Of a DNA stretch of 64,000 bases, positions 9,656 to 62,957 are shown in pieces. Under the pieces are notes generated by a model that was not told the DNA's origin, did no database searches, and saw only the letters and a list, made by a program, of their open reading frames with translations. Each line of letters begins with the position of its first letter. Positions within the stretch are counted from its first letter, which is position 1. The position numbers were made by a program, and so were the translations under genes. The stretch is from Allostella vacuolata (GTDB lineage: Bacteria > Pseudomonadota > Alphaproteobacteria > ATCC43930 > Allostellaceae): positions 1,825,001 to 1,889,000 of the forward strand of contig AP019702.1 of the NCBI GenBank assembly GCA_006739055.1. Reading direction: 5' to 3'.

Positions 9656-10894
9656 ATGAGCATCCAGGATACGGCGGAGCGGCCGGGCTTCCGCTTCAGT
9701 CTCTACGCTCCCGGCACGGCCGGCGCCGCGGACGTGGAGGCCCAGGCCGACCGGCCGCTCCTCTTCACGCCGTTCCGGCTGCGCGGGGTGACCTTCCCGA
9801 ACCGGGTGGTGATCGCACCGATGCAGATGTACGTGGCCGGGCCCGACGGACTGGCGACCGACTGGCACCTGCAGCACCTCGGCAAATATGCCGTGGGCGG
9901 TGCCGGGACCGTCATGACAGAAGCGCTGATCGTCGACCCGCGCGGCCGCAACACCTATGGCGACCTCGGCATCTGGTCGGACGACCATGTGGCGCCGCTG
10001 GCGCGCATCGCCGGGTTCATCGCCGCCCAGGGCGCGGTGCCGGCGGCGCAGCTCCACCATGCCGGCCCGAAATCCTCGCGGCAGCGGCCATGGGAGGGGC
10101 TCGGCCCGCTCGGCGCGGCGGAGGCGGCGAAGGGCGAGCCGCCGTGGCAGCCGGTCAGCGTCAGCGAGCAGAGCAGCGTCGCCGGCTGGCACCGGCCGCA
10201 CTGCCTGACATCCGAGGAGATCGCCGGCATCGTCGCCGCCTATGGCCAGGGCGCCCGCCGCGCGGCCGAGGCCGGGTTCCGGGTGCTCGACATCCACGCC
10301 GCCCACGGCTACCTGATCCACTCGTTCCTCTCGCCGATCTCCAACGACCGCACCGACCGGTATGGCGGCAGCCTGGAGAACCGGATGCGCCTGGCGGTGG
10401 AGATCGCCCGCTCGGTGCGCGGGCACTGGCCGGACGACCGGCCGCTCTTCTTCCGCCTCTCCTGCGTCGACCGCATGGAAGGCGGCTGGCAGATCGAGGA
10501 CAGCGTCGTCCTCGCCCGGGCGTTGCGGGCCGAAGGAGTCGACCTGATCGACTGCTCGTCGGGCGGCATCCGGGCCGAGAATTCGGGCATGGACTTCGTG
10601 CGCAAGCGCCAGCCCCTGCGCCGCGGACACCAGGTTCCCTATGCCGACCAGATCCGCCGCGAGGCGGAGATGCCGACCATGGCGGTCGGCGTCATCCTGG
10701 ACGGGCCGCAGGCGGAAGCGATCCTGCAGGCCGGCAAGGCCGACCTGATCGCGATCGGCAGGGCCGCCCTCTTCGACCCGCACTGGGCGGTGCATGCCGC
10801 CCACCAGCTGCGCGCCGATCCCAAGTGGCAGATGTGGCCCCCGTCCTACGGCTGGTGGCTGGAGCTGCGCGAGCGCACCGGCGTCGAGGACTGA
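9656..10894 (+). CDS. NADH:flavin oxidoreductase, Old Yellow Enzyme family (YqjM-like)
   Basis: FMN-dependent ene-reductase of 412 aa. After about 30 extra residues the TIM barrel starts (LLFTPFRLRGVTFPNRVVIAPMQMY). Substrate- and FMN-site landmarks are AAQLHHAGPKSSR, the His-x2-His pair in VLDIHAAHGYLIHSFLSP, NDRTDRYGGSLENRMRLAVE, and the C-terminal FMN phosphate motif (MAVGVIL, DLIAIGRAAL). The ATG at 9656 has a strong AGGAGGAGCAG site. The frame is open further upstream, but that part is antisense or out-of-frame text within the cupin gene. It probably reduces an activated double bond of a catabolic intermediate; the natural substrate is unknown. Compare the shortened paralogue at 16050-16796. 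Confidence 0.9.
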   Translation: MSIQDTAERPGFRFSLYAPGTAGAADVEAQADRPLLFTPFRLRGVTFPNRVVIAPMQMYVAGPDGLATDWHLQHLGKYAVGGAGTVMTEALIVDPRGRNTYGDLGIWSDDHVAPLARIAGFIAAQGAVPAAQLHHAGPKSSRQRPWEGLGPLGAAEAAKGEPPWQPVSVSEQSSVAGWHRPHCLTSEEIAGIVAAYGQGARRAAEAGFRVLDIHAAHGYLIHSFLSPISNDRTDRYGGSLENRMRLAVEIARSVRGHWPDDRPLFFRLSCVDRMEGGWQIEDSVVLARALRAEGVDLIDCSSGGIRAENSGMDFVRKRQPLRRGHQVPYADQIRREAEMPTMAVGVILDGPQAEAILQAGKADLIAIGRAALFDPHWAVHAAHQLRADPKWQMWPPSYGWWLELRERTGVED

Positions 10895-11035
10895 CGCCGA
10901 AGGCCAGCCGGGGCGCCCGCTCTTCCCGGCCGCGGATATGTGCCGCGACGGGTAGGGGCGGTCGGAAGCCGTCGACGGCGCGCAGGAAATCCGGCATGGT
11001 GGATATTCACGCAAGAAACCATCCGGCGGGCTTTG

Positions 11036-12922
11036 GTGGACGGCATTCCCGAAAGGCTCATGCAGGGCTTCCAGAACGAGGTCCTGGAGGCAATCGCGAT
11101 CGGCCGGCCGTTCGCCGAGGTCGCGCGGTTGCTGTGCGAGCGGGCGGAGGCACTCGCACCCACGGCGATCTGCACCATCCTCGCGATCGACAATGGCCGG
11201 CTTCGGCCGATAGCGGCGCCGAGCCTGCCGCAATCCTATTCCGATGCCCTGGACGGGGCCGAGATCGGCCCGACGGCCGGGTCGTGCGGTACGGCGGCCT
11301 ATTTCGGCTGGCCGGTCGAGGTCATCGACATCGAGACCGACCCGCTGTGGCAGGACTACGCGGCGCTGGTGGCGCCGCTTGGCCTGCGGGCCTGCTGGTC
11401 GAGCCCGATCGTCGCGCGCGACGGCCGGGTCGTGGGCACCTTTGCCTTCTACTACCGGACGCGGCGCGGCCCGAGCCCGGTGGAGCGCCTGATCGTCGAG
11501 AACTGTGTGCATCTCTGCGCCATCGGCCTGGAGCATGAGGAGCAGCAGCGCCGCAACCATCGGCTGGCCTACTACGACCAGTTGACCGGCCTGCCCAATC
11601 GGCACCGGTTCAACGCGATGCTGGACGAGCGGCTGGCCGGCGACGCCCCGTCACTCGGCCTGATCCTGGCCGACATCGACAACCTGAAGACGATCAACGA
11701 CGTCATGGGGCACCAGGTCGGCGATCGCCTGATCCAGGAGGTCGCGGCGCGCCTGGCCCCGGGCGAGCCCGGTCTCGCCGGCTGCCACCTGGGCGGCGAC
11801 GAGTTCGCATTGCTGGTCGATCCCTGCGCCGACCACGACCAGCTGGGCAGGATCGCGCGCGACCTGCTGGCGCGGATGCGCCTGCCGCTGGCATGCGAAG
11901 GCAACGTCATCGTCCCCCGCATGACCCTGGGCGGCGTCCTGTACGAGGCGGACGGCACCGATGCGGGGACGCTCTGCCAGAACGCCGACCTGGCCCTGTT
12001 GCATGCCAAGGAGACGGCACGGGGTGGCTACGTCGCCTACCGGCCCGGCCTGCGGACCTCCATCACCCGGCGGATCGGCACCATCCGCGAGGTGGATCGC
12101 GCGCTCGCCGAGGGGCGGATCGTGGCCCACTACCAGCCGTTGGTGCGCCTCGATAGCGCCGAGATCGTCGGCCTGGAGGCGCTGGCGCGCATGCGCATGC
12201 CGGACGGCCGGTTCGTCGCGGCGGGCGCCTTCCAGGACGCGTTCTCGGATACGGACGTGGCCTGCCGCCTGACCGACACCATCCTGCAGCAGGTCGTGGC
12301 CGACATGGCGGGGTGGCTCGCCGCCGACATCCCGTTCCACCATGTGGGCATCAACCTGGCAGCGGCGGACTTCGCCCGCGACGACCTGGAGGCGCGGATC
12401 ACGGCCGCCTTCGGCAGCGCCGTCCCGCTGCGCCATCTGGTGCTGGAAGTGACCGAGAGGGTGCTCATGGGCGAGCCGGGCAACGCCGGCATGCGGGCGA
12501 TCAGCCGGCTGCGGGCGCGCGGAATGCTGGTGGCGCTCGACGATTTCGGCACCGGCTTCGCCTCGCTGACCCACCTCCTGACCTTCCCGGTCGACGTCAT
12601 CAAGATCGACCGCAGCTTCATCGACCGCCTGCTGACGGACCGTCCGAGCGCGGTCATCGTCGAGGCCCTGATCGACATCGCCCGCAAGCTGGACATGCGG
12701 GTCGTCGCCGAAGGAATCGAGTGCGACGTCCAGCGTGCCCGCCTGTGGGAGCTCGGGTGCAGGATCGGGCAGGGCTATCTGGTCGCGAAGGCCGCCGACC
12801 GGGCGACGACGACGCGTCTGCTGCGGATGTTCTGCCGCGTGGCGGAGTCGGGCCCCGGAGATGTCGGTACACGAAGGGGCGCGATCCAGCGGCTCGAACT
12901 GCCCCTGTCCGCCTCTGCCTGA
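11036..12922 (+). CDS. cyclic-di-GMP signalling protein: GAF-GGDEF-EAL
   Basis: Soluble protein of about 628 aa that may both make and degrade cyclic di-GMP. A GAF sensor domain covers residues about 10-175 (AEVARLLCERAEALAPTAIC, GPTAGSCGTAAYFG). The GGDEF domain has an intact active site (LADIDNLKTINDVMGHQVGD, LGGDEFALLV near residue 252). The EAL domain retains its catalytic residues (GLEALARM, GINLAA, LEVTERV, DDFGTGFASL, VIKIDRSF, AEGIE, GQGYLVA). No membrane segment is seen. The start is uncertain: GTG 11036 and ATG 11060 both keep the conserved FQNEVLEAIA helix, and a GTG at 10940 would add poorly conserved basic sequence. Confidence 0.88.
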   Translation: MDGIPERLMQGFQNEVLEAIAIGRPFAEVARLLCERAEALAPTAICTILAIDNGRLRPIAAPSLPQSYSDALDGAEIGPTAGSCGTAAYFGWPVEVIDIETDPLWQDYAALVAPLGLRACWSSPIVARDGRVVGTFAFYYRTRRGPSPVERLIVENCVHLCAIGLEHEEQQRRNHRLAYYDQLTGLPNRHRFNAMLDERLAGDAPSLGLILADIDNLKTINDVMGHQVGDRLIQEVAARLAPGEPGLAGCHLGGDEFALLVDPCADHDQLGRIARDLLARMRLPLACEGNVIVPRMTLGGVLYEADGTDAGTLCQNADLALLHAKETARGGYVAYRPGLRTSITRRIGTIREVDRALAEGRIVAHYQPLVRLDSAEIVGLEALARMRMPDGRFVAAGAFQDAFSDTDVACRLTDTILQQVVADMAGWLAADIPFHHVGINLAAADFARDDLEARITAAFGSAVPLRHLVLEVTERVLMGEPGNAGMRAISRLRARGMLVALDDFGTGFASLTHLLTFPVDVIKIDRSFIDRLLTDRPSAVIVEALIDIARKLDMRVVAEGIECDVQRARLWELGCRIGQGYLVAKAADRATTTRLLRMFCRVAESGPGDVGTRRGAIQRLELPLSASA

Positions 12923-13029
12923 GAGTCCTCGGCGTCCGCCCGCTTTCGACGGCATCGGGCTTGCTTGCGGCGCTGGTTTCTCTTCCCCGTTCGACCACCG
13001 ATGATTCCGCCCCAGCAGGGACGCCGGCG

Positions 13030-15900
13030 TTGGAAGAAGTACTGACCTTCGGCCCCTTCCGCTTCCTTCCGCAGCGCAACCTGCTGATCGATGGCGATCG
13101 GCCGCTGCGGCTCGGCGCCCGCGCCCTGGACATCCTGGCATTGCTTCTGGAACGGGCGGGTGAGGTGGTGCCGCACGACGATATCCGCGCCCGGGCCTGG
13201 CCGAGCACCTTCGTCGACGATACCAACCTGCGGGTGCAGATCGCGGCCCTGCGCAAGGCCCTGGGCGACGGCCAGGGCGATGCGCGCTACATCCTGAACC
13301 TGCCGGGTCGTGGCTATCGGTTCGTCGCAGAGGTCGGTCGTGGCGACCGGCCGCTGCGGCCGGTCGACCCGGCGGCAGCGCTGGTGCCGCCGCCGGGGCG
13401 GGACACGCCGGCCGTGGCCGAGATCCGCGAGCCGGCGGACACCGGCCTGCCGGTGCTGCTGGTCCGGCTGATCGGGCGCGACGGGCTGATCGCGACCGTC
13501 GCCGAGCGCCTGTCCCAGCGCCGCCTCCTCACCCTCGTCGGCCCGGCCGGGGTCGGCAAGACGACGGTGGCAGTGGCCGCGGCGCGGCAGCTGGCCGCCC
13601 GCTTCGCCGGCGGCGCCTGCTTCGTGGACCTGGCGCCGCTGACCGACCCGGCCCTGGTGCCGGGGGCGCTGGCCTCGGCGCTCCGGCTGCAGGTTCCGGC
13701 CGAGCGGCCGATCCCGGCGCTGGTGGAGCGCATCCGGCAGCGCAAGCTCCTGGTCATCCTCGACAATTGCGAACATCTGGTGGATGCGGCGGCTGCGATC
13801 GCCGAGGCCATTTTGGCCGGAGCGCCCGGTGTATGCGTCATCGCCACCAGCCGCGAGCCGCTGCGCGCCCAGGGCGAATGGGTGCAGCGCCTGCCGTCGC
13901 TGGAGCTGCCGCCGCCGGGACGGGATCGGACGGCGGGCGAGGCGATGGCGGCGCCGGCCGTGCAGCTCTTCGTCGAACGCGCGATCGCCGGGGGCGACGG
14001 CTTCGAGCTGGGCGACGGCGACGCGCCGCTGGCGGCGGAGATCTGCCGCCAGTTGGACGGCATCCCGCTCGCGATCGAACTGGCGGCGGCCCGCGTCGGG
14101 CAGTTCGGCGTCCGCGGCCTGGCGCGCGCGCTCGACGACCGCTTCGCCGTGCTGCGTGGCGGCCGCCGCACCGCCGCACCCCGCCACCAGACCCTGCGCG
14201 GGGCGCTGGACTGGAGCTTCGGCATCCTGCCCGAATTCGAGCGGGCCCTGCTGCGCCGGCTGTCGATCTTTGCTACCGGCTTCTCGATCGACGGTGCGAT
14301 CGCCGTGCTGGCCGGGGACGGTGCGGATGTCACCGAACTGATCGAGGGCGTGGTCGGGCTGGCCGAGAAATCCCTCCTGGCCGCCGACATCAGCGGCGAC
14401 CTGCCGACCTACCGGCTGCTGCAGTCGACCCGCGCCTACGCGCTGGAGAAGCTGCAGCAGAGCGGCGAGGCGCCGGCGCTGCGCCGCCGCCATGCCGAGC
14501 ACCTGGTCCGGATGCTCGGCCGCGCGGCGGCGGAGTGGGGCGTGCGCCCGGTCGACGAATGGCGCGCCGCCTATGTAAGCCTGGTCGACGAGGTGCGGGC
14601 GGCGCTGGACTGGGCGTTCCGCCCGGAGGGCGACGCCGCGCTGGGCTTCGCGCTGATGGCCGAATCCGGGCCGCTCTGGTTCCAGGCCTCGCTGACCCAC
14701 GAGTATCGCGCGCGCCTGGAAGCGGCCCTGGCGCATCCGGAAGCCGCCGACGCCCTGGCCGACCGGCCGCGGATGCGCCTGCAGATCGCGCTCAGCTCGG
14801 CCATCTTCAACACCAGCGGCCCCGGGGCGGACATGGCGGCGGCTTCGCGCCGCGCCCTGGAGCTGGCGGAGCGGCTGGGCGATGCCGATGTCCAGCTCCA
14901 GGCGCTGTGGGGGTTGTCGGGCGAGCGCTACCAGAGCGGCGACTATCATATGGCGCACGCCCTGGTGGAGCGCTTCGGCCTGGTCGCCGCCGCTGCCGGC
15001 GACCAGGCCGCGGGCGTGGTCCTGGACCGGATGATGGCGCTCGGCCTGCATCTGATCGGGCGCCACGCGGAGGCACGGCGCCATGCCGAGCGGGCCGTCC
15101 GTCACCCCCCGTCCCAGGTGCGGACCGCGCAGAAGAGCCTCTACGAGTACGACAACCGGGTGGCCGCCCGCTCCCATCTGGCGCGGATCCTGTGGATCTC
15201 CGGCTGTCCCGACCAGGCCGACGCGGTCGCGCGCGAGGGGTTGGAGTATGCCCGGTCCCTGCGGGCAGGGCCCAGCCGCTGCTATGTGCTGGTCTTCGCC
15301 GCCTGCCCGGTCGCCTTCTGGCGCCGGGACCCGGCGTTGGCGGGCGAGGAGGTCCGGTTGCTGGGCGAACTCGCGGCCGACCCCTCGCTCGCCCACTGGC
15401 GCTCCTGGGCCGCGGGCTATGCCGCGGCGCTGGACCTGGCGGCCGCCGACGGTCGGATAGCCGCCGGCCGGCCGGCCGGCGGCGACGGCCTCGGGATCGA
15501 TCTGACGGGCGCGCGAATCGGCCCGATTCACCTCGACATGCTGGGGACCCTGCATGCCGGCCTGGCCACGCCGGCGGCGATCGACCGGGCGGAGCAGGGA
15601 TTGGCGCCGTGGTGCGCACCGGAACTGATCCGCGCCCATGGCGAGCGTCTTCTTCGCGCCGGCGGCGCCGACGCCCGCCCGCAGGCCGAGGCGGCATTTC
15701 GGCGCGCCCGCGCCCTGGCGGCCGGGCAGGGGGCCCTGTCGTGGGAGCTCCGGGCGGCCACCAGCCTCGCCCGGCTGTGGCACGACCGCCCGCCCGAGGC
15801 GCGTGCCGCCCTGGCGCCGGTGGTGGAGCGCCTGCGGGAGGGCTTCGCCACCCCGGACTACCGCGACGCGGCCGGCCTGCTGGCGGAACTTGGCCACTGA
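13030..15900 (+). CDS. winged-helix (OmpR/CadC-type) regulator with NB-ARC-like ATPase and TPR-like C terminus
   Basis: Large regulator of 956 aa. Residues about 5-100 form a Trans_reg_C winged helix (FGPFRFLPQRNLL, LGARALDILALLLERAGEVV, VQIAALRKALGDG, LNLPGRGYRFVAEV). A STAND-type ATPase follows, with Walker A GPAGVGKTT near residue 171, Walker B LLVILDNCEHL near 244, sensor VIATSREPLRAQGE, and GIPLAIELAA. The C-terminal half is helical and TPR-like (RALELAERLGDADVQLQALWGLSGE). Such proteins bind a ligand and DNA using ATP-driven switching; the signal is unknown. No ATG/GTG fits near the conserved N terminus. I take the TTG at 13030, which has AGGGA 8 bases upstream; it could start further upstream at another TTG. 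Confidence 0.85.
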   Translation: MEEVLTFGPFRFLPQRNLLIDGDRPLRLGARALDILALLLERAGEVVPHDDIRARAWPSTFVDDTNLRVQIAALRKALGDGQGDARYILNLPGRGYRFVAEVGRGDRPLRPVDPAAALVPPPGRDTPAVAEIREPADTGLPVLLVRLIGRDGLIATVAERLSQRRLLTLVGPAGVGKTTVAVAAARQLAARFAGGACFVDLAPLTDPALVPGALASALRLQVPAERPIPALVERIRQRKLLVILDNCEHLVDAAAAIAEAILAGAPGVCVIATSREPLRAQGEWVQRLPSLELPPPGRDRTAGEAMAAPAVQLFVERAIAGGDGFELGDGDAPLAAEICRQLDGIPLAIELAAARVGQFGVRGLARALDDRFAVLRGGRRTAAPRHQTLRGALDWSFGILPEFERALLRRLSIFATGFSIDGAIAVLAGDGADVTELIEGVVGLAEKSLLAADISGDLPTYRLLQSTRAYALEKLQQSGEAPALRRRHAEHLVRMLGRAAAEWGVRPVDEWRAAYVSLVDEVRAALDWAFRPEGDAALGFALMAESGPLWFQASLTHEYRARLEAALAHPEAADALADRPRMRLQIALSSAIFNTSGPGADMAAASRRALELAERLGDADVQLQALWGLSGERYQSGDYHMAHALVERFGLVAAAAGDQAAGVVLDRMMALGLHLIGRHAEARRHAERAVRHPPSQVRTAQKSLYEYDNRVAARSHLARILWISGCPDQADAVAREGLEYARSLRAGPSRCYVLVFAACPVAFWRRDPALAGEEVRLLGELAADPSLAHWRSWAAGYAAALDLAAADGRIAAGRPAGGDGLGIDLTGARIGPIHLDMLGTLHAGLATPAAIDRAEQGLAPWCAPELIRAHGERLLRAGGADARPQAEAAFRRARALAAGQGALSWELRAATSLARLWHDRPPEARAALAPVVERLREGFATPDYRDAAGLLAELGH

Positions 15901-51539: not shown

Positions 51540-53240
51540 GTGGCCCGAAAACCGTCGAACCTGACCTATGGCGTGGCGGACCGGCCATCATGGCCCGTCA
51601 CCCTGGTGCTGGCCTTCCAGCACCTGGTGCTGATCCTGATGTTCATGGCCTATCCGCTGATCGTCGCGGCGGGGGCCGGCTTCTCGCCGGAGGCGACGCG
51701 TCATTTCGTGACGGTCACCATCTTCGCGATGGGCGTCGGCACCATCCTGCAGGCATGGAGCCGGTTCGGCAGCGGCTTCCTGCTGGTCCACAATCCCAAC
51801 CCGATCCACATCCCGATCCTGATCCAGGCGGGTGCCGCGGGCGGGCCGGCGCTGATTGCCACGCTGGGCCTGTTCAGCGCCGCCGTGCAGGCCTTCATGG
51901 GACGGATCATCCGGCCCCTGCGGCGCCTGCTCCCGGCCGAGGTGTGCGGCGTCACCGTGACGATGCTGGGCGTGTCGCTGATCCTGCCCGGGCTCGACCG
52001 GGCGCTGGAGCTGTCGCCCGACCGCGCGACCTTCCATGCCGACAGCCTGGCGGTCGCCGCCCTGTCGCTGACGCTGATGCTGGCGGTGGCGATCTTCGCG
52101 CGCGGCACGCTGCGGCTCTTCTCGCTGCCGATCGGCATCGGTGTGGGCTGGCTGTGCGCGGCGCTGCTCGACCACGGGACGCACGCGCCGTCGGTCTCGA
52201 TCCAGGCCCTGCCATGGATCGACCTGCCGTTCGCCATGCCCTCCTTCGCCTTCGACGCGGCCTTCGTGCCGGCGATCATGCTGGGCGCGTTCATCGCCGC
52301 GATCGACACGCTCGGGCTGATGATCTCCGTCCAGCGCATGAACGACGCCGACTGGCGGCGGGCCGACCTGCGCAGCGCCTCGCAGGGGATGCTGGCCGAC
52401 GGCTCCAGCTGTGCGATCAGCAGCGTGCTGGGCGGCATGCCGACGCATATCTCGTCGTCCAACGTCGGGCTGGCCTTCGCGACCGGGGCCACCAGCCGGA
52501 TCATCGCCACCTGCACCGGCTGCATGCTGGTGGTGGCGGCGCTGTGCCCGCGCGTCGCCGCCACCGCGACCATGGTGCCGCAGCCGGTGCTGGGGGCGAT
52601 CATCCTCTATTCCGCCGCCTACCTGATCACCTCCGGCATGGAGCTGATCCTGTCGCGCCGGCTGAGCGAGCGGCGCGTCTTCATGGTCGGCCTGTCGATC
52701 ATTGCCGGCATCAGCCTGCTGGTCATCCCGATGGTGTTCCGCGGGGTGCCGCCGGTGCTGGCGCCGCTCTTCGGCTCGCCCCTGTCGCTGTCGGCGATCG
52801 TGGCGCTGCTGCTCAACCTGCTGTTCCAGATCGGCATCAGCCGCCAGGCCACGCTGACCATGCCGGTGGACGCCAACCCGTTCCTGGCCGTGCACGAGTT
52901 CCTGGACCGCCAGGGCGAGCTGTGGGGCGCACGCCGCGATGTCATCATCGCCGCGTCCCGCACGACCGCGCTGGCGGTCGAGGCGATCGTCGAGGCCGGC
53001 CTGGCGCGCGAGGCGATCCGCCTCGACGTGCAGTTCGACGAGACCCACCTCGACGTCGACATCGTCTACACCGGCATCGCGCTCGAGCGGCCGAGCGCCC
53101 AGCCCTCGCCGGAGGCGCTGCTGGGCGACGAGCGCGAGGTCGGCCGCTATGTCGGCTGGACGCTGGGCCAGCTGGCCGACCAGCTGACCCTGCGCTCGGA
53201 CGGCGACCGCCAGACGGTCGCCATCCGCTTCGAGCATTGA
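51540..53240 (+). CDS. SLC23/NAT-family xanthine-uracil permease with cytoplasmic C-terminal domain
   Basis: Protein of 566 aa. Residues about 15-430 form a nucleobase-ascorbate transporter with many membrane helices (LVLILMFMAYPLIVAAGAGF, SGMELILSRRL). The family signature [QEH]-x4-N-x-G-x4-T-[RKG] is exact at HISSSNVGLAFATG, near residue 302. About 115-130 further residues follow the last helices: a helix with RTTALAVEAIVEAGLA, strands IRLDVQFDETHLDVDIVYTG, helix VGRYVGWTLGQLADQL and strand TVAIRFEH. This tail resembles the order of a GHKL/HATPase domain but lacks its ATP motifs. GTG 51540 has GGGGAGAGG upstream. Substrate is a purine, pyrimidine or related compound. Confidence 0.87.
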   Translation: MARKPSNLTYGVADRPSWPVTLVLAFQHLVLILMFMAYPLIVAAGAGFSPEATRHFVTVTIFAMGVGTILQAWSRFGSGFLLVHNPNPIHIPILIQAGAAGGPALIATLGLFSAAVQAFMGRIIRPLRRLLPAEVCGVTVTMLGVSLILPGLDRALELSPDRATFHADSLAVAALSLTLMLAVAIFARGTLRLFSLPIGIGVGWLCAALLDHGTHAPSVSIQALPWIDLPFAMPSFAFDAAFVPAIMLGAFIAAIDTLGLMISVQRMNDADWRRADLRSASQGMLADGSSCAISSVLGGMPTHISSSNVGLAFATGATSRIIATCTGCMLVVAALCPRVAATATMVPQPVLGAIILYSAAYLITSGMELILSRRLSERRVFMVGLSIIAGISLLVIPMVFRGVPPVLAPLFGSPLSLSAIVALLLNLLFQIGISRQATLTMPVDANPFLAVHEFLDRQGELWGARRDVIIAASRTTALAVEAIVEAGLAREAIRLDVQFDETHLDVDIVYTGIALERPSAQPSPEALLGDEREVGRYVGWTLGQLADQLTLRSDGDRQTVAIRFEH

Positions 53241-53883
53241 ACGAAAGTTGAGCAGCGGGTAGCTCCCCGTGCGCAGGTCCACCAAGGGCTGCTTGCTGAT
53301 GGCCTGGACGCCTTCCGACGGCGACCCGCCGGGTTCATCCCCGGCAGGTCGCTTGCTGCGGTGATAACTCGTCGACTTGCAGGCTAGCCGTAGCTTGCCA
53401 CCGCGAGCGTGTAGACGGTCGCTTCGTAGGCGGTCATCGGCTCGATCCGCCCTTCGTGAACATACTCCCATGCCATCTTCAACGAGAACCCGATCGCCAT
53501 AAGCGTGTAAGTCATCATGACTTCCTCCCGAAAGCCAGTCAGTGCTCACAAATTCCCTGAGGTCGGCATTCTCGTCTTGACGCGTGGCTGCTCTTTTTTG
53601 TATCAGCCATCTGGCACTGCGGTAGACGTAAGCCTGCCGTTCCTTGGGGTGGTCAGTAATCTGATCGCCCCTTTCTTTTAGGTGCGCCGACCCCGACCAA
53701 TCAGTCTGGTACACATGGGTGATGAAGTCGTTGTTACGCTTGTGCGTCAATGTTGTGACGGCGCCCGCCGGAACATTGCACTCGCAGGGACGGCTTATGC
53801 GAATTCGCTTCTAACTTCGGACGCCTTCCCGGATTCAGCTAAGCCATTCGTGGTCCACCGCGCCGGCAGCGTGAGCGACAAAG
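53241..53883. other. 643-base gap of different base composition between permease and helicase genes
   Basis: The segment, especially about 53400-53830, is visibly less GC-rich than its neighbours (runs such as CTTTTTTG and CTTTCTTTTAGG) and lacks their codon bias. It contains one well-supported small ORF (53384-53518, minus). On the minus strand another frame is open from a TTG at 53750 (THKRNNDFITHVYQTDWSG...) and overlaps that ORF, but it has no ribosome site and runs antisense into the permease gene. No terminal inverted repeats or integrase gene are seen. It may be remnant or boundary DNA of an acquired segment carrying the helicase gene. Confidence 0.5.
53384..53518 (-). CDS. predicted 44-aa small protein
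   Basis: The ORF begins ATG-ATG at 53518, directly behind a strong ribosome site (CGGGAGGAAGTC), and ends at a TAG at 53384-53386. Translation starts MMTYTLMAIGFSLKMAWEY, continues VHEGRIEPMTAYEATVYTL and ends AVASYG. It is mildly hydrophobic and amphipathic, without a clear signal peptide. I do not recognise it. It lies 366 bases downstream of the helicase stop on the same strand and could be an accessory gene of that protein or an unrelated orphan. The main support is the ribosome site. Confidence 0.5.
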   Translation of the reverse strand: MMTYTLMAIGFSLKMAWEYVHEGRIEPMTAYEATVYTLAVASYG

Positions 53884-56800
53884 TCAATTGGGAGATGCGT
53901 CCTGGCGCTGTCCCATGGGCCGATCTGATGCCATAGCCAGCGCCAGTTCCAGCCGGCGCCGGCTGGCTGCGCGCAGCCGCTGCAGGCCGGCCGCGCGGGC
54001 CATTGCCGTGACCGCGTCGTCGGCGCTCTGGCCCGGGGCCGCCAGTTCGCGCGCCAGGGCAGCCAGCTCCGGCAGGGCGATCTCGTCGACGGGCCGGGCA
54101 TCCGGCCCGGACGGCCGGCGGAAGGCGAGTTCGGTCGGCTCGGGCTTGGCCAGGGGCCAGAGGAAGGCCGCGTCGTCCTCCGGCACGCGCCGGCAGGCGC
54201 CGGCCGCCAGGGCCAGGACGCGATCGCCGATCCGGGCACCGGCCCGGGCCCAGCCATGGGCGCGGGCGATCCGCCGGCACAGCACGTCCTCGCGGATCGG
54301 CCCCTCGGCCTCGACCACCGCCCGGATCATGGCGAGCAGCGCCGGCTCGTAGCCCGCCTCGAAGAAGCGCTCGGGCGACGCGGGCAGGTCCAGTTGCGCC
54401 TCGCGGAACAGGGCCGGGGGCCGTGCCGCCGCCATCGCCAGCCCCGCGATCTGCCGCTCGGCGCGCGGCTCCGGCGGGGCCTCCGCCGCCCCGGCGCCGT
54501 GCACGGGCGCTTCGGGAACCGGCTTGATGTCTTCGGCGTCCGTCACGGCCGGGGCGGCTGTTGCCGGCTCGACGACCGGCATCGGCGGCGGCTTCGCCCG
54601 CGACGCGGCCAGAAGCATCTGCAGCGCGTCGTCCGTGCGGTCGAGCGCGGTCTCGGGGTCGAGCCACCAGTCGGTCGACCAGATGCGCACGATCTCCCAG
54701 CCGAGCCCGCGCAGGACGAACTCCCGCAGCTTGTCGCGGTCGCGGGCGGTGGCCGAGCGATGATAGGTGGCGCCGTCGCACTCCACGCCCGCCAGGTAGC
54801 GGCCCGGCGCGTCCGGGTCGACGATGCCGAGGTCGATGCGGAAGGCCGAGACGCCGACCTGCGGCTGCACCTGCCAGCCGCGGCCGGCCAGCGCCCGGGC
54901 GACCGCCTGCTCGAACGGGGATTCGAACTGGCCGACGCTGCCGAAATTGGCCTCGGCGAGCACCTTCGGGCCGCGATCGGCGAACTCCAGGAAGTGCTTC
55001 AGGTCGCGCACACCCGGCGCCTGGGTGCGGGAGAGGTCCATCTGGTCCGGCGTCAGGCTGGAGAAGACGCGCAGCGCCTGGCGCGCCCGGGTGATGGCGA
55101 CGTTGAGGCGGCGCTGCCCGCCGTCCCGGTTCATCGGCCCGAAGTTCATCGACGGCGGCAGGCCCGGCCGGGCAGGGCCGTAGGTGATGGAGAAGTACAT
55201 GACGTCGCGCTCGTCGCCCTGGACGTTCTCCAGGTTCTTGACGAACACCGGCTCCAGCCGGTCGTCGGCGAAATGCGCCTCCAGGTCGGGGTCGCGGCGG
55301 CGCTCCTCGTCGAGCAGGTCCTCGATCAGCTTCTGCTGCTCGGCGTTGAAGGTGACGACGCCGATGCTGTGGCCGGCGGCCGCGAAGGCCGGGTCGCGCA
55401 GCCGCGCCACCAGGTCGGCCACCAGGGCGCGCGCCTCCGGCTTGTTGATGCGGGCGCCGCCCTTCTCGTACACGCCGTCGGCGACATGGTGGAAGCTGAC
55501 CGCCCGGTCGTCGGTGACCGGCGAGGGGAAGGTGACCAGCCCGCCGCCATAGTAGCGGTGGTTGGAGAAGGCGATCAGGCTCTCGTGCCGGCTGCGATAG
55601 TGCCAGGACAGGTTGATGGTCGGCAGGTTGGCGCCCAGGCACTCGTCCAGGATGCTCTCCAGGTCCTGCTCGATCTCCTCGTCCAGCTCCTCGTCCTCGG
55701 CGCGCTCGAAGAAGGCGGTGGGCGGCAGCTGCTTGGGGTCGCCCACCATCACCACCTGGCGGCCGCGGGCGATCGCGCCGACCGCATCCCAGACCGGGAT
55801 CTGCGAGGCTTCGTCGAACACCACCAGGTCGAAGCGGGCGGCATCCGTCGACAGGTACTGCGCGATCGAGAGCGGGCTCATCAGCAGGCAGGGCGTCAGC
55901 TGCAGCAGGGCACCGGGCAGGCCCTGGACCAGCTCGCGCAGCGGCAGGTGGCGCTTCTTCTTCTCCATCTCGCGCTTCAGCAGGCCCCATTCGGACCCGC
56001 GCGAGACATCCGACGGGTCGGGCAGGCCGCCGCAGAGCCGGGCGCGGACATAGGCGCGGGTCAGGGCCGTGAAGCGATCGTCCAGGGCGCGGAAGTCGGC
56101 GATCCGCTTCTCGTGCTCGGCCGGGATGAAGTTGCGCAGCACCGGGTCGCCGTCGACCGTGGCGTTCAGCCACCAGCGGGCATAGGCGACCTCGAACAGG
56201 TCGCGCGCGGCGACCCCGGCTCCGCCCTCGATCGCCGCCACCAGGGGGGCGAGCGCCAGGGCGAGCGCCTCGCCGCGGACCTTGCGCCAGCCGCACCAGC
56301 CGTTGAGGCGCGGGCCGGCGGCGACGATGCCGCGGCACCGCGCGACGATGGCTGCCGGATCGGGGCCGAAATGCGCTGCGAAGGCCTCGGCCGGGCGGCC
56401 GGACAGCTCCGCCAGGGCGCCCGCCCGGCCCTCGAACGCGGCCAGATCGGCCAGGTAGGCCGCGCCCGCCCTGGCGACGGCGCCGTCCTTCTCCAGCAGC
56501 GGGTTGCCGTCGCCGAGCAGCCGCTCGACGGGCGGGCGCAGGGCCGCCATCGCGTCGACCGTCGGCGCGAGGTCGGCGAGTGCCGCGCCCAGCGCCGCCC
56601 GGAAGCGCAGCGCGCCGTCCACCTCCGCCTCGTTGGTCGCCGGTCCCGCCCACAGGCCGCCGGTCCGCGTCGACAGCGGGGCCAGGGCGGCGATCTGCCC
56701 GTCCAGCGCGGCCAGGCTGCGCAGCGTCGCCAGGTCCCGGGCGGCTGCCGGGCCGCACCGGCCTTCGGCGACCGCTTCCAGCCCCTGGTCGGACCAGGTC

Positions 56801-59800
56801 TCGCCGCGGGCCGCCGCGGCGAGAGCCGACTGGAAGCGGGATGCGGCCTCGGCGATGCCGAGGTCGGTGTCGCGGCCGGCCCAGGGCGGGCACGCGGCCC
56901 GCAGGTGGTCAAGGCCGTCGATGTCTCCTTCCAGACGCCGCATCCGCGCCAGGCGCTCCAGGTCGGGCCCGGTCTCGCCGGCGGGCGCGCCGTCCAGAGC
57001 CGGCGCCAACGCCGCGACCACCCGGCGCTGCTGCACGGCGCGCATCGGCCACCAGGATTCCTCGGCCTTCCTCCAGTCCGCCAGCAGGGCGGGGGTGTCG
57101 AGGCGGTCGAGTTCCGCCGGATCGTACCGCACCGACAGTTCGCCCCGCACCGCGCGGTAATGGCCGACCAGCCGGCAGCCATGCTCGAACTCCCGGACCA
57201 GGTCCTCGGGCCAGGGGGCCGACAGGGTCGCCTTCAGGGTCCGGTGGCGTGCGACCAGTTCCAGCCCCTGGGTCAACCCGTCGGCGATGCCGGCCCAGTC
57301 GGGGCGCAGGACGAAGCGCCAGTCGCGCCCGGCCGCGACCGGCAGGGTGCCGGCCAGCGCTGCCAGCGCGCGCCGCCCGCGGCCGTCGCGCGGCAGCTCC
57401 GGCAGGCCGGCCGCACTGCGGACGCCCTCGGCCGAAGCCTCCAGCGCCTCCACGGCGGCGATCATGGCCTGGGCCGCGGCGAGCAGCGCCTGCTGCCAGC
57501 CGGGCGACCAGTCGCCGCGCGCGACCGGCGCCAGCGGATGGCCGTCGAGCCGTCCGACCGACTGCAGGTTGACGTCCAGCCGCTCGGCCACCTCGCGCAT
57601 GGCGGCGAGCGCGGCTGGGTCGTGGGCATCGCCCGACGGCCACGACAGGCCGATCTCGGGCAGGGAAGCGGCCTCGACCACCCGGCCGATGGCGGCATGG
57701 ACCGACAGGCCGTTGCGGCGGCGCAGGTGCAGGCGCTCGACGAAGTCGTTGAGCTGGTCGCGCAGGCGGCGCAGGCGGGCGGCCTCCATCTGCCAGGCGT
57801 CCGCGTCGACCTCACCCCGGGCGTCCCAGGCGCGGCGCAGCTGCGCCAGCACGTCGGCCTTGCGGGCCTTGCTGGAATGCAGCTCCAGGCAGAAGTCGCC
57901 CAGCCCGACGTCGCGCAGCCGGCGATAAACGACGTCGAGCGCGGCGATCTTCTCGGAGACGAAGAGGACGGTCTTGCCGCTCGCCAGGGTCTGGCTGACC
58001 AGGTTGGCGATGGTCTGGCTCTTGCCAGTGCCGGGCGGGCCGACCAGGACGAAATCCTTGCCCTTCGATGCCGCCATCACCGCCGACAGCTGCGAGCTGT
58101 CGGCGGGCAGGGGACAGAAGGTTTCCTCCGGCCCATGGTCCCGGTCGAGCCGCCGCGGGTCGGGAAAGGGAATGGCGCTGGGATAGGGATCGCGCGGGTT
58201 CTCGATCAGGTGGCGGACCACCGGGTTCTGCTTCAGCTGGTCGGTGCGGTCGACCAGGTCCTTCCACATCAGGTGCTTGGCGAAGGAAAAGACCGACAGG
58301 ACGACCTCTTCGGTCACCTCCCAGCCCTTGACGTCCTTGATCGCGCGGGAGATCGCCTGCCACAGGCCGGCGACGTCGAGGCCGCTCTGGTCCTTGGCCA
58401 GCCCGCCGTCGGCGATCGGCAGGTGGAGGCGGAAATCCTGGCGCAGCATCTCCAGCAGGGTCGGGTTGAAGCGCGGCTCGTCCTCGTGCAGCAGGAGCGT
58501 GAAGCCCGAGCGCACGCTCTTGCGCTCCAGGGTCACGGGAACCAGGATCAGCGGCGCCTTGAAGCGCCGGTCGGCCTTGTCGCCGCGGGTCCAGGCGAGG
58601 AAGCCGAAGGCCAGGTACAGGGTGTTGGCGCCGCCCTCCTGCAGGGCCGAGCGCGCTTGGCGGTAGAGGTCGACCAGGCGGACATCGATCTCCTCCGCCG
58701 GCAGGTCGACCAGGAGCTGCTGGCGCTCCAGCGCCTCCAGCGCGTGGGCGCGGCGGACATCCTCCGCGTGGCGCTCCTCGTGGATGGCCTGGCTGCGCGG
58801 GTCGGGCCCCTCCATCAGGACGGGCCGCGGCAGCAGGCGCAGCCGGCGGCCGCCGGACAGCAGGTCCTCCAGCCGGCCCGGGTCGGGGGCCTCGATGCGC
58901 ATCGCCTTCTTGCCGGCGCGAAAGTTCAACAGGCCGTTACGCAGCGACAGGTCCAGGAGCTTGCGCTGCCAGCGGTCGAGCCGGCCCTGGGGCGTGGTCG
59001 GCGCCTCGTCCTCGCGGCCGTCATGGTCGGCCAGGTCGGGGGCGGCCTCGAAGACCGGCTCCGGGGTTCCGGTGCCGTCCTCGGCCGCGGCCGGGGTGGC
59101 GTCGGCGCTGGCCAGCGGGCGCAGCCGCTGCATCCGGCAGCGCCGGATGTCGACCGCCAGCTCGAACTTGTCCTCCTCCGCCTCGGCGATCTGGGCCATG
59201 GCCCGCTCGGCGGCGCGGGTGAAGGCGGGGCAGGGGCGGTGGGTGGCGAGCGTCGTCTCGAACAGCACGATCTCGTGCAGCTTGACCCGCTTGCGCAGCG
59301 CGGTCACGTCGTCGACGACCGCGGTCGGGAACTCCTCGGCCTTCAGCCACAGCCCGGGAAAGGCGTGGCCCTGGGTGAAGACGACCAGCGGGTTGAGGCC
59401 GGCCTGCTCCAGGCAGGCGGCGAACAGCAAGGTCGTGTCGAGACAGGTGGCGAGGCCGAAATCCAGGATCTGCGAGGGGCTGCGCACCTTCTGCCCGGCC
59501 TGCTCGAAGCTGGCCGGCGGCAGGGCATAGTCGAGCCCCAGCCCACCGATCGCGGTCCAGACCGCGGACGCCAGCTCCCAGGCGCGCCGCGGGTCGCCCT
59601 GATAGCCGTTGAGGCCGGCGGGAAGGCCGTGCCCGTGCAGGATGGCGGCCGCCCGCTTCAGGATCCGTTCGACCGCCGGATCGTTCGGCTGGACGAAGGC
59701 GGCGACCATCTCCGGCAGGTGGCCGATGCCGCCCCACTGGTTGCGCGGCAGCAGCTCGACCGGCACCACCGTCTGGGCCCGTTCGGCCCCGCCGGCGCGC

Positions 59801-60111
59801 AGGGTGAACACCGCCCGGACCTCCTCGGCCTCGGTCAGGCGCGCCAGATGGCCCGCATCCAGCCCGACGTCGCGGTCGAGCAGGGGATAGATCGCGCCCG
59901 CCTCGATGCGCGCGATCCGCCAGGTGCGCGGCTTGAGGAAGCCGGGCTCGGAATGCAGCGTCAGCTCGACATCGACCAGGGCCTCGCCCAGGCGGTTGTC
60001 GACGGCGAGCTCGCGCAGGACCGGGATCGCGTTCTGGTGAAGCGCGATGTTGACCCGCGGCGCCAGCTCCGCCGCGATGCCGACGCCGCCCTCCGCCTCG
60101 CGATCCTCCAT
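53884..60111 (-). CDS. giant SF1 helicase-nuclease: DUF4011, helicase, Vsr-like nuclease, winged-helix tail (candidate Hhe-type defence protein)
   Basis: Protein of 2075 aa; ATG 60111 has TTGGAGGAC 6 bases upstream. A transglutaminase-like segment comes first (LATCLDTTLLFAACLEQ with Cys223, QGHAFPGLW with His249). DUF4011 follows (LDRWQRKLLDLSLRNGLLNF, from about residue 376). The SF1 motor has Walker A GPPGTGKSQT (Lys697), Walker B VVFDEASQIP (Asp1433-Glu1434), VGDPKQLPPT, SWHYRSRHESLI, VQGDERDVMYFS and RRLNVAITRARQAL. About 730 residues separate Walker A and B. A Vsr/PD-(D/E)xK-like nuclease follows (RIDLGIVD with Asp1760, AGVECDGATYH with Glu1777), then a DUF3320/winged-helix-like tail from about 1850. 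From memory this order matches the single-gene anti-phage system Hhe. Motifs look intact. The N-terminal frame upstream of 60111 is not conserved-looking. Confidence 0.88.
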   Translation of the reverse strand: MEDREAEGGVGIAAELAPRVNIALHQNAIPVLRELAVDNRLGEALVDVELTLHSEPGFLKPRTWRIARIEAGAIYPLLDRDVGLDAGHLARLTEAEEVRAVFTLRAGGAERAQTVVPVELLPRNQWGGIGHLPEMVAAFVQPNDPAVERILKRAAAILHGHGLPAGLNGYQGDPRRAWELASAVWTAIGGLGLDYALPPASFEQAGQKVRSPSQILDFGLATCLDTTLLFAACLEQAGLNPLVVFTQGHAFPGLWLKAEEFPTAVVDDVTALRKRVKLHEIVLFETTLATHRPCPAFTRAAERAMAQIAEAEEDKFELAVDIRRCRMQRLRPLASADATPAAAEDGTGTPEPVFEAAPDLADHDGREDEAPTTPQGRLDRWQRKLLDLSLRNGLLNFRAGKKAMRIEAPDPGRLEDLLSGGRRLRLLPRPVLMEGPDPRSQAIHEERHAEDVRRAHALEALERQQLLVDLPAEEIDVRLVDLYRQARSALQEGGANTLYLAFGFLAWTRGDKADRRFKAPLILVPVTLERKSVRSGFTLLLHEDEPRFNPTLLEMLRQDFRLHLPIADGGLAKDQSGLDVAGLWQAISRAIKDVKGWEVTEEVVLSVFSFAKHLMWKDLVDRTDQLKQNPVVRHLIENPRDPYPSAIPFPDPRRLDRDHGPEETFCPLPADSSQLSAVMAASKGKDFVLVGPPGTGKSQTIANLVSQTLASGKTVLFVSEKIAALDVVYRRLRDVGLGDFCLELHSSKARKADVLAQLRRAWDARGEVDADAWQMEAARLRRLRDQLNDFVERLHLRRRNGLSVHAAIGRVVEAASLPEIGLSWPSGDAHDPAALAAMREVAERLDVNLQSVGRLDGHPLAPVARGDWSPGWQQALLAAAQAMIAAVEALEASAEGVRSAAGLPELPRDGRGRRALAALAGTLPVAAGRDWRFVLRPDWAGIADGLTQGLELVARHRTLKATLSAPWPEDLVREFEHGCRLVGHYRAVRGELSVRYDPAELDRLDTPALLADWRKAEESWWPMRAVQQRRVVAALAPALDGAPAGETGPDLERLARMRRLEGDIDGLDHLRAACPPWAGRDTDLGIAEAASRFQSALAAAARGETWSDQGLEAVAEGRCGPAAARDLATLRSLAALDGQIAALAPLSTRTGGLWAGPATNEAEVDGALRFRAALGAALADLAPTVDAMAALRPPVERLLGDGNPLLEKDGAVARAGAAYLADLAAFEGRAGALAELSGRPAEAFAAHFGPDPAAIVARCRGIVAAGPRLNGWCGWRKVRGEALALALAPLVAAIEGGAGVAARDLFEVAYARWWLNATVDGDPVLRNFIPAEHEKRIADFRALDDRFTALTRAYVRARLCGGLPDPSDVSRGSEWGLLKREMEKKKRHLPLRELVQGLPGALLQLTPCLLMSPLSIAQYLSTDAARFDLVVFDEASQIPVWDAVGAIARGRQVVMVGDPKQLPPTAFFERAEDEELDEEIEQDLESILDECLGANLPTINLSWHYRSRHESLIAFSNHRYYGGGLVTFPSPVTDDRAVSFHHVADGVYEKGGARINKPEARALVADLVARLRDPAFAAAGHSIGVVTFNAEQQKLIEDLLDEERRRDPDLEAHFADDRLEPVFVKNLENVQGDERDVMYFSITYGPARPGLPPSMNFGPMNRDGGQRRLNVAITRARQALRVFSSLTPDQMDLSRTQAPGVRDLKHFLEFADRGPKVLAEANFGSVGQFESPFEQAVARALAGRGWQVQPQVGVSAFRIDLGIVDPDAPGRYLAGVECDGATYHRSATARDRDKLREFVLRGLGWEIVRIWSTDWWLDPETALDRTDDALQMLLAASRAKPPPMPVVEPATAAPAVTDAEDIKPVPEAPVHGAGAAEAPPEPRAERQIAGLAMAAARPPALFREAQLDLPASPERFFEAGYEPALLAMIRAVVEAEGPIREDVLCRRIARAHGWARAGARIGDRVLALAAGACRRVPEDDAAFLWPLAKPEPTELAFRRPSGPDARPVDEIALPELAALARELAAPGQSADDAVTAMARAAGLQRLRAASRRRLELALAMASDRPMGQRQDASPN

Positions 60112-60343
60112 GGCCGTCCTCCAAGTTTGGTGCAGTTGCGGTGGGTGTACCACGCGCCATGGTGGAGAAGAATCCGTTAGTGCTGAAATTTTGTCTGTTG
60201 AGTCAAGGTTTTGGGACGAATTCCAGGATTTCTGGCCAGTATGTCGGGTTCGCGGGGGCGCTCGCATCGCCGGATGCCGAATTGCCCCTGGACCACGCCG
60301 GACTGATCGTCCAGGTTGCAGAAGGGCAGTTGGAGGGATCGGG

Positions 60344-61147
60344 ATGATCCGTGGGGCGAGCCGTTGGGTGCGGCAAGGCACGGCGGCGGGAGTCGCGCTG
60401 CTACTGGCAGGTTGCGCCGTCGACGGCGCCTTTCCAATCCTGCCGGGATCGAATCTCGACCAAGTCTGGAATACGACGCGGATCTATCATCCACAACGGT
60501 CGGGGCCCCCGGCCAACCCGCACACGCTGGGCGACTTGCAGTTGCCGGTCGATGGCTCCAGGACCTGGCCGGCGGTGATCTTCCTGCATGGCTGCACGGG
60601 ATTCAGCGGCGCCAAGTCGCAGGCCCAGTACCCGCCCGCCCTGGCCCGCGCGGGCTTTGCCGTCTTCGTCCCCGACAGCTTTGCGCGGGGGCCGGCGCGG
60701 CAACCCGTCTGCGGCAATGTCCGCAGCGACACGATCGCGCTCCGCCATGCGGAGGTCGAGAGCACGCTCGCGCATATCCGCCGCCTGCCATGGGTCGACC
60801 AGAAGAACCTGTTCCTGGCCGGTCATTCGGAAGGGGGGATCGCGACGGCGATGTATGACGGCGGCGAGGTCTTCCGGGCCTACTTCATCGCCGGCTGGAG
60901 CTGTTCGTCGACCAATCCGGACTTCGCTCGCATTCACGCCCCGCGCGCCAGGCCGGTGCTGGCGATCATCGGCGCCAACGATAGCCTGCAGGTCGGGACC
61001 GCGCGGGAGGGGCACCATTGCGGCATGCGCATGTCGGGCCGGTCGGATTCGCGATCGATCGTCCTGCCCGGCATCGGTCACGAGGCGACGGACCACTACA
61101 GTACGCTGCCGACCCTGATCGAGTTCTTCTCGAAGCACAGGCAGTAG
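60344..61147 (+). CDS. lipoprotein dienelactone-hydrolase-like alpha/beta hydrolase
   Basis: Protein of 267 aa with a lipoprotein signal peptide (MIRGASRWVRQGTAAGVALLLAGC, lipobox LLAGC, Cys at 24), so it is probably membrane-anchored and periplasmic. Alpha/beta-hydrolase landmarks are VIFLHGCTGFSG, the nucleophile elbow LFLAGHSEGGIATAM (Ser in GHSEGG), VLAIIGANDSLQ (acid) and LPGIGHEATDHYST (His). Cysteines in PVCGN, WSCSS and HHCGM may form disulfides. GGAGGGA precedes the ATG. The 232 bases separating it from the divergent helicase gene are AT-rich in parts and hold no other convincing gene. Confidence 0.84.
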   Translation: MIRGASRWVRQGTAAGVALLLAGCAVDGAFPILPGSNLDQVWNTTRIYHPQRSGPPANPHTLGDLQLPVDGSRTWPAVIFLHGCTGFSGAKSQAQYPPALARAGFAVFVPDSFARGPARQPVCGNVRSDTIALRHAEVESTLAHIRRLPWVDQKNLFLAGHSEGGIATAMYDGGEVFRAYFIAGWSCSSTNPDFARIHAPRARPVLAIIGANDSLQVGTAREGHHCGMRMSGRSDSRSIVLPGIGHEATDHYSTLPTLIEFFSKHRQ

Positions 61148-61166
61148 TGCTGCCGACCAGGGTGCG

Positions 61167-62957
61167 TCAGAGCCACTCCGGCCGGGTGCCCGCCACGGTC
61201 GGGTCGCTGTCTTCGACCAGGGTCGCCCAATGGGCGGTCTTCGGCAGCTCCCAGGCGAAGAACCAGTCCGCGGCGGCAAGCTTGCCGCGGTAGAAGTCCG
61301 CGTCCTCGCCCGATGCGCCGTCCAGCCGGCTGAGGGCGACCAGCGCCTGGCCGAGCCAGATCCACGCCACCACGACATGGCCCGCCAGATCCAGATAGGC
61401 GCCAGCGTTGGCGAGCGCGGCCGGCGCCTGTCCCCCGGCCATGGTCGCGCGGACCGCCGCCGTGGCCCGGACCAGCCGGTCGATCGCCGCTTGCAGGGCG
61501 AGCCCATGCGCCGCCAGCCCCGTTCCGGCCGCGGCCGCGATCGCCGGCTGCATCCGCCCCACCAGCTCGGCCAGCAGGGCGCCGTCCTCCAGCATCACCT
61601 TGCGGCCGAGCAGGTCGAGGGCCTGGATCCCGTTGGTGCCCTCGTGGATCGGGTTGAGGCGGTTGTCGCGATAGAACTGCTCGACCGGGTATTCGCGGGT
61701 GTAGCCGTAGCCGCCATGGACCTGGATCGCGAGCTTGTTCGCCTCCAGGCACCATTCGGCCGGCCACGCCTTGACGATCGGGGTCAGGATGTCGAGCAGG
61801 CGGTGGGCGGCGGCGCGCCCGGCCGGGTCGGGGTGGGTGCGGGCGTCGTCGACCAGGCGGGCGGCATACAGGCACAGCGCCAGCCCGCCCTCGGCATAGG
61901 CCTTCTGGGCCAGCAGCATGCGGCGCACGTCGGCATGCTCGACGATCGGCACCTGGGGCCGGCTCGCGTCCTTGGCGTCGGCCGGGCGGCCCTGGGTGCG
62001 GGTCCTGGCATAGGCGAGCGCGTGCAGGTAGCCGGTATAGCCCAGCATCGCCGCACCCAGGCCGACGCCGATGCGGGCCTCGTTCATCATCTGGAACATC
62101 TGGGCGAGGCCGCGGCCGGGCTGCCCCACCAGTTCGGCGACGCAGGCACCGTTCTCGCCGAAGTTCAGCATGGTCGAGGTGGTGCCGCGCCAGCCCATCT
62201 TGTGGATCAGCCCGGCCAGGGCCACGTCGTTGCGGGCCCCGGGCGCGCCGTCGTCGCCGAGCGCGTATTTCGACACCAGCATCAGCGACAGGCCCTTGGG
62301 CCCGGGCGGCGCGCCGGCGATGCGGCACAGCACGAGATGGACGATGTTCTCGGCCAGCTCGTGGTCGCCGCCGGAGATGAAGATCTTCGACCCCTTCAGC
62401 CGCCACGAGCCGTCCGGGGCCGGGGTCGCCGTGGTGCGCACGTCGCCCAGCGACGAGCCGGCCTGCGGCTCGGTCAGGGCCATGGTGCCGAAGAAGCGGC
62501 CGGCGCGCATGGCGGGCAGGTAGCGGCGCTTCTGGTCGTCGCTGCCGAAGGTGGCGATCAGGTTGGCGGCCGCGATCGTCAGCAGGGGATAGGACGCGGT
62601 CGCGATGTTGGCCGCGTCGAACAGCCCGAAGCAGGCCTGGGCCACCAGGTGGGGCAGGGCCATCCCGCCGTCATCGAGCGGGGCCTCCATGGCGAAGAAG
62701 CCGGCCGCGGCGAAGGCATCGAGTGCCGCCTTCGCCTCCGGCACGATCGCCACCCGGCCGTTCTCCAGCCGCGGCTCTTCCAGGTCGGCCTTGCGGTTGT
62801 GCGGGGCGAAATGGCGCCCGGCGATCGCCGTCGCGGTGTCGAGCGCGGCCGCGAACGTCTCCGGCCCATGGTCGGCGAAGGCCGGCCGCTCCGCCAGCCG
62901 CCCGGCCTCCAGCCACTCGAAGAGCAGGAAGTCGAGGTCGCGGCGGCGGACCAGCAT
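61167..62957 (-). CDS. acyl-CoA dehydrogenase, large (DmdC-like) type
   Basis: FAD enzyme of 596 aa. The core shows MALTEPQAGSSLGDVRTTATP (FAD/substrate loop), KIFISGGDHELAENIVHLVLCR, IQVHGGYGYTREYPVEQFYRDNRLNPIHEGTNGIQALDLLGRKV (with the Glu of IHEGTN in the catalytic position), and the extra C-terminal domain of about 130 residues that marks the 590-600 aa subgroup including 3-methylmercaptopropionyl-CoA dehydrogenase. The acyl substrate is unknown. ATG 62957 lies 11 bases after the stop of the upstream dehydrogenase; the ribosome site is weak, suggesting coupling. It converges with the lipoprotein hydrolase gene. Confidence 0.92.
   Translation of the reverse strand: MLVRRRDLDFLLFEWLEAGRLAERPAFADHGPETFAAALDTATAIAGRHFAPHNRKADLEEPRLENGRVAIVPEAKAALDAFAAAGFFAMEAPLDDGGMALPHLVAQACFGLFDAANIATASYPLLTIAAANLIATFGSDDQKRRYLPAMRAGRFFGTMALTEPQAGSSLGDVRTTATPAPDGSWRLKGSKIFISGGDHELAENIVHLVLCRIAGAPPGPKGLSLMLVSKYALGDDGAPGARNDVALAGLIHKMGWRGTTSTMLNFGENGACVAELVGQPGRGLAQMFQMMNEARIGVGLGAAMLGYTGYLHALAYARTRTQGRPADAKDASRPQVPIVEHADVRRMLLAQKAYAEGGLALCLYAARLVDDARTHPDPAGRAAAHRLLDILTPIVKAWPAEWCLEANKLAIQVHGGYGYTREYPVEQFYRDNRLNPIHEGTNGIQALDLLGRKVMLEDGALLAELVGRMQPAIAAAAGTGLAAHGLALQAAIDRLVRATAAVRATMAGGQAPAALANAGAYLDLAGHVVVAWIWLGQALVALSRLDGASGEDADFYRGKLAAADWFFAWELPKTAHWATLVEDSDPTVAGTRPEWL

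Follow-up and report, generated by a model that had tools for sequence, protein, structure and literature searches.

A ProA-type helicase-nuclease in an accessory segment of Allostella vacuolata, a candidate stand-alone anti-phage protein

The subject of this analysis is a single large gene in a 64,000-nucleotide stretch of the Allostella vacuolata genome (contig AP019702.1, positions 1,825,001 to 1,889,000; hereafter, the window). The gene lies at 53884..60111 on the minus strand and encodes a 2075-amino-acid (aa) protein that, judged from its sequence profile matches, is a member of the already named ProA / PDC-S37 family. In the interpretation that we favor, and that we consider reasonably probable, the protein is a stand-alone accessory helicase-nuclease that would sense and cut abnormal phage DNA and would bear an optional peptidase-like arm. 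We prefer this interpretation because the curated ProA cut-off was passed over the full length of the model, because PDC-S37 was the best PADLOC profile, and because the catalytic positions are conserved. Anti-phage activity is a prediction, and the protein is a good but ordinary defense candidate.

The 2075-aa protein is a ProA family member and not Hhe

The A. vacuolata genome is a single 5.83-Mb contig, in which the protein described here has one match. A first-pass annotation of this DNA had reported an open reading frame (ORF) of 2075 aa, and an uninterrupted minus-strand ORF of that length was found, starting from an ATG at 60111 with GGAGG (60118-60122) six bases upstream. An alternative GTG start at 60381 would also be possible, giving a 2165-aa reading. 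On the opposite strand, an open frame of 1974 aa (54256-60180, plus strand) spans almost all of the gene; it is probably a shadow of high-GC codon usage.

Among NCBIfam models, the equivalog NF058533 ("anti-phage protein ProA"; curated cut-off of 1500 bits) matched the protein best. The score was 2272.8 bits, and the match covered model positions 1-1903 of 1903 and aa 21-2045 of the protein. The first-pass annotation had matched this architecture to Hhe (NF042953, curated cut-off of 2000 bits), for which the protein scored only 818.4 bits. With each score set against its own cut-off, the Hhe name is therefore unsupported, and a plausible misfiling can be put right, from Hhe to ProA; the more general assignment to an anti-phage family stands. 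Some observations do speak for Hhe. Hhe was the second-best family in both NCBIfam and PADLOC, it shares the DUF4011-helicase-nuclease core with the ProA-type protein, and its model was matched at E values up to 1e-50 by all 19 sequences of our reference alignment (A1; the window protein and 18 of 28 homologue loci). The ProA profile was likewise matched by 19/19 at this threshold. Both models find these sequences because the core is shared, so that the curated cut-offs decide. Four more homologues, scored singly, gave 764.6 to 1006.8 bits for Hhe and 1591.5 to 2171.4 bits for ProA. We therefore rejected Hhe membership, which is very improbable for this protein. In PADLOC, which showed no cut-off for these profiles, PDC-S37 scored 1208.3 bits and Hhe scored 577.6 bits. 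The domain order is also that of ProA: a transglutaminase-like (TGL) region, recognized via family members, is followed by DUF4011, an SF1 helicase, an MTES_1575 nuclease, and DUF3320. We found no feature that distinguishes the 2075-aa protein from the family, and its identity to the aligned relatives is at most 61%.

Domain architecture and conserved residues

Ten loci were left out of alignment A1 as split, truncated, or without the N terminus (L003, L009, L010, L022, L023, L024, L025, L027, L028, and L029). Alignments A3 and A5 additionally omit L014, L017, and L018, and A4 omits L004, L007, L014, and L026. The search patterns for the 28 loci held an N-terminal peptide, and TGL-bearing relatives are therefore overrepresented among them.

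Profiles for DUF4011, AAA_11, AAA_12, MTES_1575, and DUF3320 all matched the protein above their Pfam cut-offs, with the SF1 helicase split in two. DUF4011 occupies aa 384-556 (58444..58962, minus strand, as for all domains here; 5.9e-51). Helicase motif I, a Walker A sequence GPPGTGKS, lies at aa 691-698 (58018..58041) and is invariant in the 19 sequences. The second part of the helicase covers aa 1416-1684 (55060..55866; AAA_11 and AAA_12), with Walker B residues D1433/E1434 and the arginines R1675 and R1677. K697 of Walker A and D1433/E1434 are invariant in 19/19, in agreement with the intact ATPase motifs described earlier. The MTES_1575 Vsr-type nuclease follows at aa 1733-1829 (54625..54915; 2.6e-35). 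The three residues that the first-pass annotation had picked out are conserved, D1760 in 18/19 and both E1777 and D1779 in 19/19. The winged-helix-like tail corresponds to DUF3320 at aa 1915-1961 (54229..54369; 4.9e-19). Some relatives stop shortly past the nuclease, namely, L012 and L026, the ProA match of the latter ending at model position 1718.

The N terminus was examined with an AlphaFold2 model of aa 1-660 (mean predicted local distance difference test [pLDDT] score of 80.1). The model contains a beta-rich domain at aa 10-120 (59752..60084; block pLDDT of 86-95), followed by a helix-and-strand region at aa 121-335 (59107..59751). We assign the latter region as the TGL domain through family members and conservation. 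The window protein itself gave no Pfam match there, to either Transglut_core or DUF553, but 8/16 family members matched Transglut_core (best, 2.6e-5) and 7/16 matched DUF553. In addition, of the residues C223, H249, and D267/D268 of this region, C223, H249, and D268 are invariant in 19/19; in a further homologue, G054, position 268 is Glu, and C223, H249, and D267 are retained. A search of the PDB with a sequence profile of the TGL region gave one unrelated match only (E value of 0.8). When the aa 1-660 model was compared with the PDB using Foldseek, no E value was better than 1.0e-3. Of the 50 matches shown, most spanned about 114 to 141 columns, and some reached 415, with a root mean square deviation above 15. 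We read the short matches as the N-terminal beta-rich domain, and they are therefore no proof of a TGL core.

For the last 385 residues, the model had a mean pLDDT of 78.5. Weak Foldseek matches were obtained to 3hrl, a putative endonuclease-like protein (E value of 0.039), and to the catalytic domain of I-Bth0305I (0.072), and weak winged-helix matches were also found, e.g., BlaI (0.23). When solved structures were searched with the family profile, SMUBP-2, SEN1, UPF1, and DNA2 were matched, but only along short parts of the helicase; none of the matches extended over the whole protein.

The gene lies in an accessory segment

The gene is part of a 7,926-bp segment (53241..61166) that runs from the stop codon of a permease gene to that of an acyl-CoA dehydrogenase gene. 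Two congeners with single-contig genomes, G001 and G002, have an orthologous permease (83% and 82%) followed directly by the orthologous dehydrogenase. The gap between the two genes is 10 bp in G001 and 20 bp in G002, versus 7,926 bp in the window. The segment is thus missing at this junction in both, which bears out the earlier description of the locus as accessory DNA, and the relatives do not all carry proA at this position. A third congener, G003 (a 570-contig draft), had no ProA match and no DUF4011 match. In our reading, the A. vacuolata lineage gained the segment, and the proA gene was probably acquired horizontally.

The first-pass annotation had also placed the gene next to a compositionally different gap. 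This holds for the gap, as a mild effect: 53001-54000 has a GC content of 63.5%. It does not hold for the segment as a whole, whose 71.6% GC falls within the range of the window. The gap itself (53241-53883) contains a 44-aa minus-strand ORF (53384-53518) without a Pfam match. A mobile-element origin of these 643 bp was considered and rejected, as only matches of 45 bp (84%, in G003) and 68 bp (76%, at another place in its own genome) were found in four genomes. The ends of the segment, compared between 53141-53400 and 61051-61300, have no common 11-mer, direct or inverted.

The only other recognized gene in the segment is a dienelactone-hydrolase-like gene (60344..61147, plus strand). Read from a longer start at 60047, it matched DLH with 22.5 bits (cut-off, 21); read from 60344, it had no Pfam match at 1e-5. 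It has only weak matches in the three congeners (best, 1.2e-6), and its product starts like a lipoprotein (LLLAGC). Ten ORFs were scanned in 42944-64000. Eight fell into general-metabolism families, and two had no family at an E value of 1e-5. The families found were polyphosphate kinase (Ppk), Ppx/GppA, an alpha/beta hydrolase, a 3'-5' exonuclease with HRDC, a class II tRNA synthetase with a GAD domain, a xanthine/uracil-type permease, and two acyl-CoA dehydrogenases. No methyltransferase family was found among these ten. This supports our interpretation, as does the proposal of modification-independent recognition for this architecture in PMC3710099.

A TGL-free relative occupies its own segment in a congener

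G002 has a gene that scores as proA (1591.5 bits) at a place different from that of the window locus. It lies in a 5.7-kb segment (L071, about 8097-13811). In a BLAST comparison, the matching flanks are separated by 10 and 15 bp in G000 and G001, respectively. The ORF (8172-13775) encodes 1867 aa and leaves about 75 bp before it and 36 bp after it within the segment; all further long ORFs in this stretch overlap the 1867-aa ORF in different frames. That this relative alone fills a segment for which G000 and G001 have an empty junction argues for a stand-alone accessory gene. Its DUF4011 begins at residue 43, and the TGL module is therefore absent. The relationship to the window protein is distant, with 38% identity. 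A tree of 24 sequences, rooted at the midpoint, grouped the G002 relative with those of G004 and G010 (100/100) and the window copy with Azospirillum and Magnetospirillum (100/98). The exact places are unsure because the G004 and G010 branches are long and because some rows, including those of the window and G002, were flagged for unlike composition. Most likely, A. vacuolata and G002 hold separate acquisitions of different subfamilies.

The genus therefore offers a natural contrast between the TGL form and a TGL-free relative, each with its junction empty in the other species. Since the G002 relative lacks the whole TGL module, and with it the conserved Cys, His, and Asp residues, the role of this domain can be tested directly.

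Distribution and partner genes

DUF4011 is present in 2/4 genomes of the genus. A ProA profile match at E values up to 0.001 was found in 14/61 genomes, and a score above the cut-off was found in 4/61, with the window's own genome counted in both. This patchiness, together with the congener junctions that lack the segment, has to be set against the idea that the protein is a DNA or RNA maintenance enzyme, acting in repair or R-loop removal in the manner of UPF1, SEN1, or DNA2, with no immune role. The idea draws on the solved structures matched by the family profile and on Pseudomonas aeruginosa, in which a DUF4011 gene is described as a core flank of defense hotspot 1 in the part of PMC10250203 available. 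From that description, DUF4011 by itself is no sign of accessory status. On balance, we hold a pure maintenance role to be quite improbable here.

Among 72,556 plasmid records, 356 matched at E values up to 1e-20, and 22 of these covered at least 80% of the query in one place; among 50,697 phage records, one matched at E values up to 1e-10, with 67% coverage. The plasmid matches bear on another alternative, defense against plasmids or other mobile DNA and not against phage, in which the helicase-nuclease would destroy incoming conjugative or transforming DNA. The DNA-processing architecture, the lack of a modification partner among the neighbors scanned, and the accessory presence of the gene would all suit such a role, but homologues are themselves carried on plasmids, and 213/356 matching records are predicted to be conjugative, although the looser matches may include non-ProA kin. 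We consider this alternative unlikely, and we retain phage DNA as the favored target.

Partner genes were sought by clustering the flank proteins of 25 loci, namely, the window, L071, L073, and 22 of the 28 homologue loci. Gene calling in the flanks was crude: 3/4 picks in the window differ from the genes described above, and the hydrolase gene was missed. No neighbor set occurred in more than 3 of the 25 loci. Nine sets reached three loci, five of them in a Polaromonas trio (L013, L016, and L021) and four in other mixtures. Since the Polaromonas loci have common neighbor genes, proA looks stably inherited in that genus. The lack of a neighbor family recurring in more than three loci and the 22 plasmid records with high coverage both speak for the favored interpretation. 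Among the PADLOC families listed (25 of 77), none matched more than 2 of 100 neighbors at E values up to 1e-15. The best values were 7.2e-160 for PDC-S05 and 2.4e-46 for PDC-S23, so that some ProA copies do adjoin a defense candidate. Overall, the comparison of loci indicates that, on chromosomes, ProA-type genes occupy segments of one or two genes with no adjoining defense island.

Several loci deserve separate mention. In L003, L009, and L010, all from metagenome-assembled genomes, each ProA relative is broken across two frames or reading segments, by decay or assembly error. L027 and L028 are ProA-like sequences in two assemblies of Pelagibacteraceae, a family known for small genomes.

Proposed function

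In the mechanism that we propose, the UPF1/DNA2-like SF1 helicase would load on abnormal phage DNA, such as ends, single-stranded regions, or replication intermediates, and the winged-helix tail may help in DNA contact or loading. ATP-driven movement would then release the Vsr-type nuclease, which would cut phage DNA without a methylation partner. For the TGL domain, the most likely role is that of a peptidase or regulatory arm, and the arm is probably optional, because a related gene lacks it while the aligned TGL-bearing members keep the catalytic positions. A doubtful extension is that this arm works as a peptidase, activated once the helicase has bound DNA; if true, one polypeptide would attack both phage DNA and a protein.

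Several observations weigh against a defense function or against parts of this interpretation. No defense island adjoins the gene among the ten ORFs scanned, and the link to such an island raised in the first-pass annotation did not materialize. Elsewhere, the commonest Pfam families of the 100 neighbors from the 25 copies are mixed and largely general (25 of 91 families listed), and defense candidates are rare (PDC-S05, 2/100; PDC-S23, 2/100; 25 of 77 families listed). A chain of the Toxoplasma mitoribosome ranked first among the Foldseek matches of the C-terminal model (E value of 0.0065), the nuclease and tail fold matches being weak. Because a DUF4011 gene of P. aeruginosa is core according to the available part of PMC10250203, some DUF4011 proteins may serve a housekeeping function. 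Loss of the segment in the congeners, instead of gain, is formally conceivable. Finally, literature searches on ProA, its domains, PDC-S37, or Hhe, with most subscription papers outside their coverage, turned up neither a phage assay of ProA nor a paper that treats it as an anti-phage protein.

Comparison with HEPN-bearing giant proteins and Hachiman

Giant proteins with this architecture plus a HEPN RNase domain were described in a 2013 paper that proposed modification-independent defense, according to its accessible part (PMC3710099). These MTES_1575-type proteins have in common with the 2075-aa protein a transglutaminase-like domain, an SF1 helicase, a Vsr-type restriction endonuclease, and a winged helix-turn-helix region overlapping DUF3320. 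All four elements were found in the window protein, although structural comparison gave only weak matches for the nuclease and the tail. HEPN is the difference. No Pfam HEPN match was found in the 2075-aa protein at E values up to 1, and no R-x4-6-H pair is kept at 85% or more in the 19-row alignment, with structural models covering aa 1-660 and the last 385 residues; a HEPN RNase was therefore rejected. By its sequence, the window protein is the architecture described in PMC3710099 without a detected HEPN domain.

The second comparison is with Hachiman. In the portion of PMC12278908 available, HamAB is described as pairing a helicase, which acts as the sensor, with a nuclease as the effector, and we take this worked helicase-nuclease precedent as a further reason for our interpretation. 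The likeness lies in the coupling of helicase and nuclease and is one of analogy only, as HamAB consists of two proteins and its authors compare the helicase with Hel308/Ski2. By this analogy, ProA may couple a DNA-sensing helicase to a nuclease within one polypeptide.

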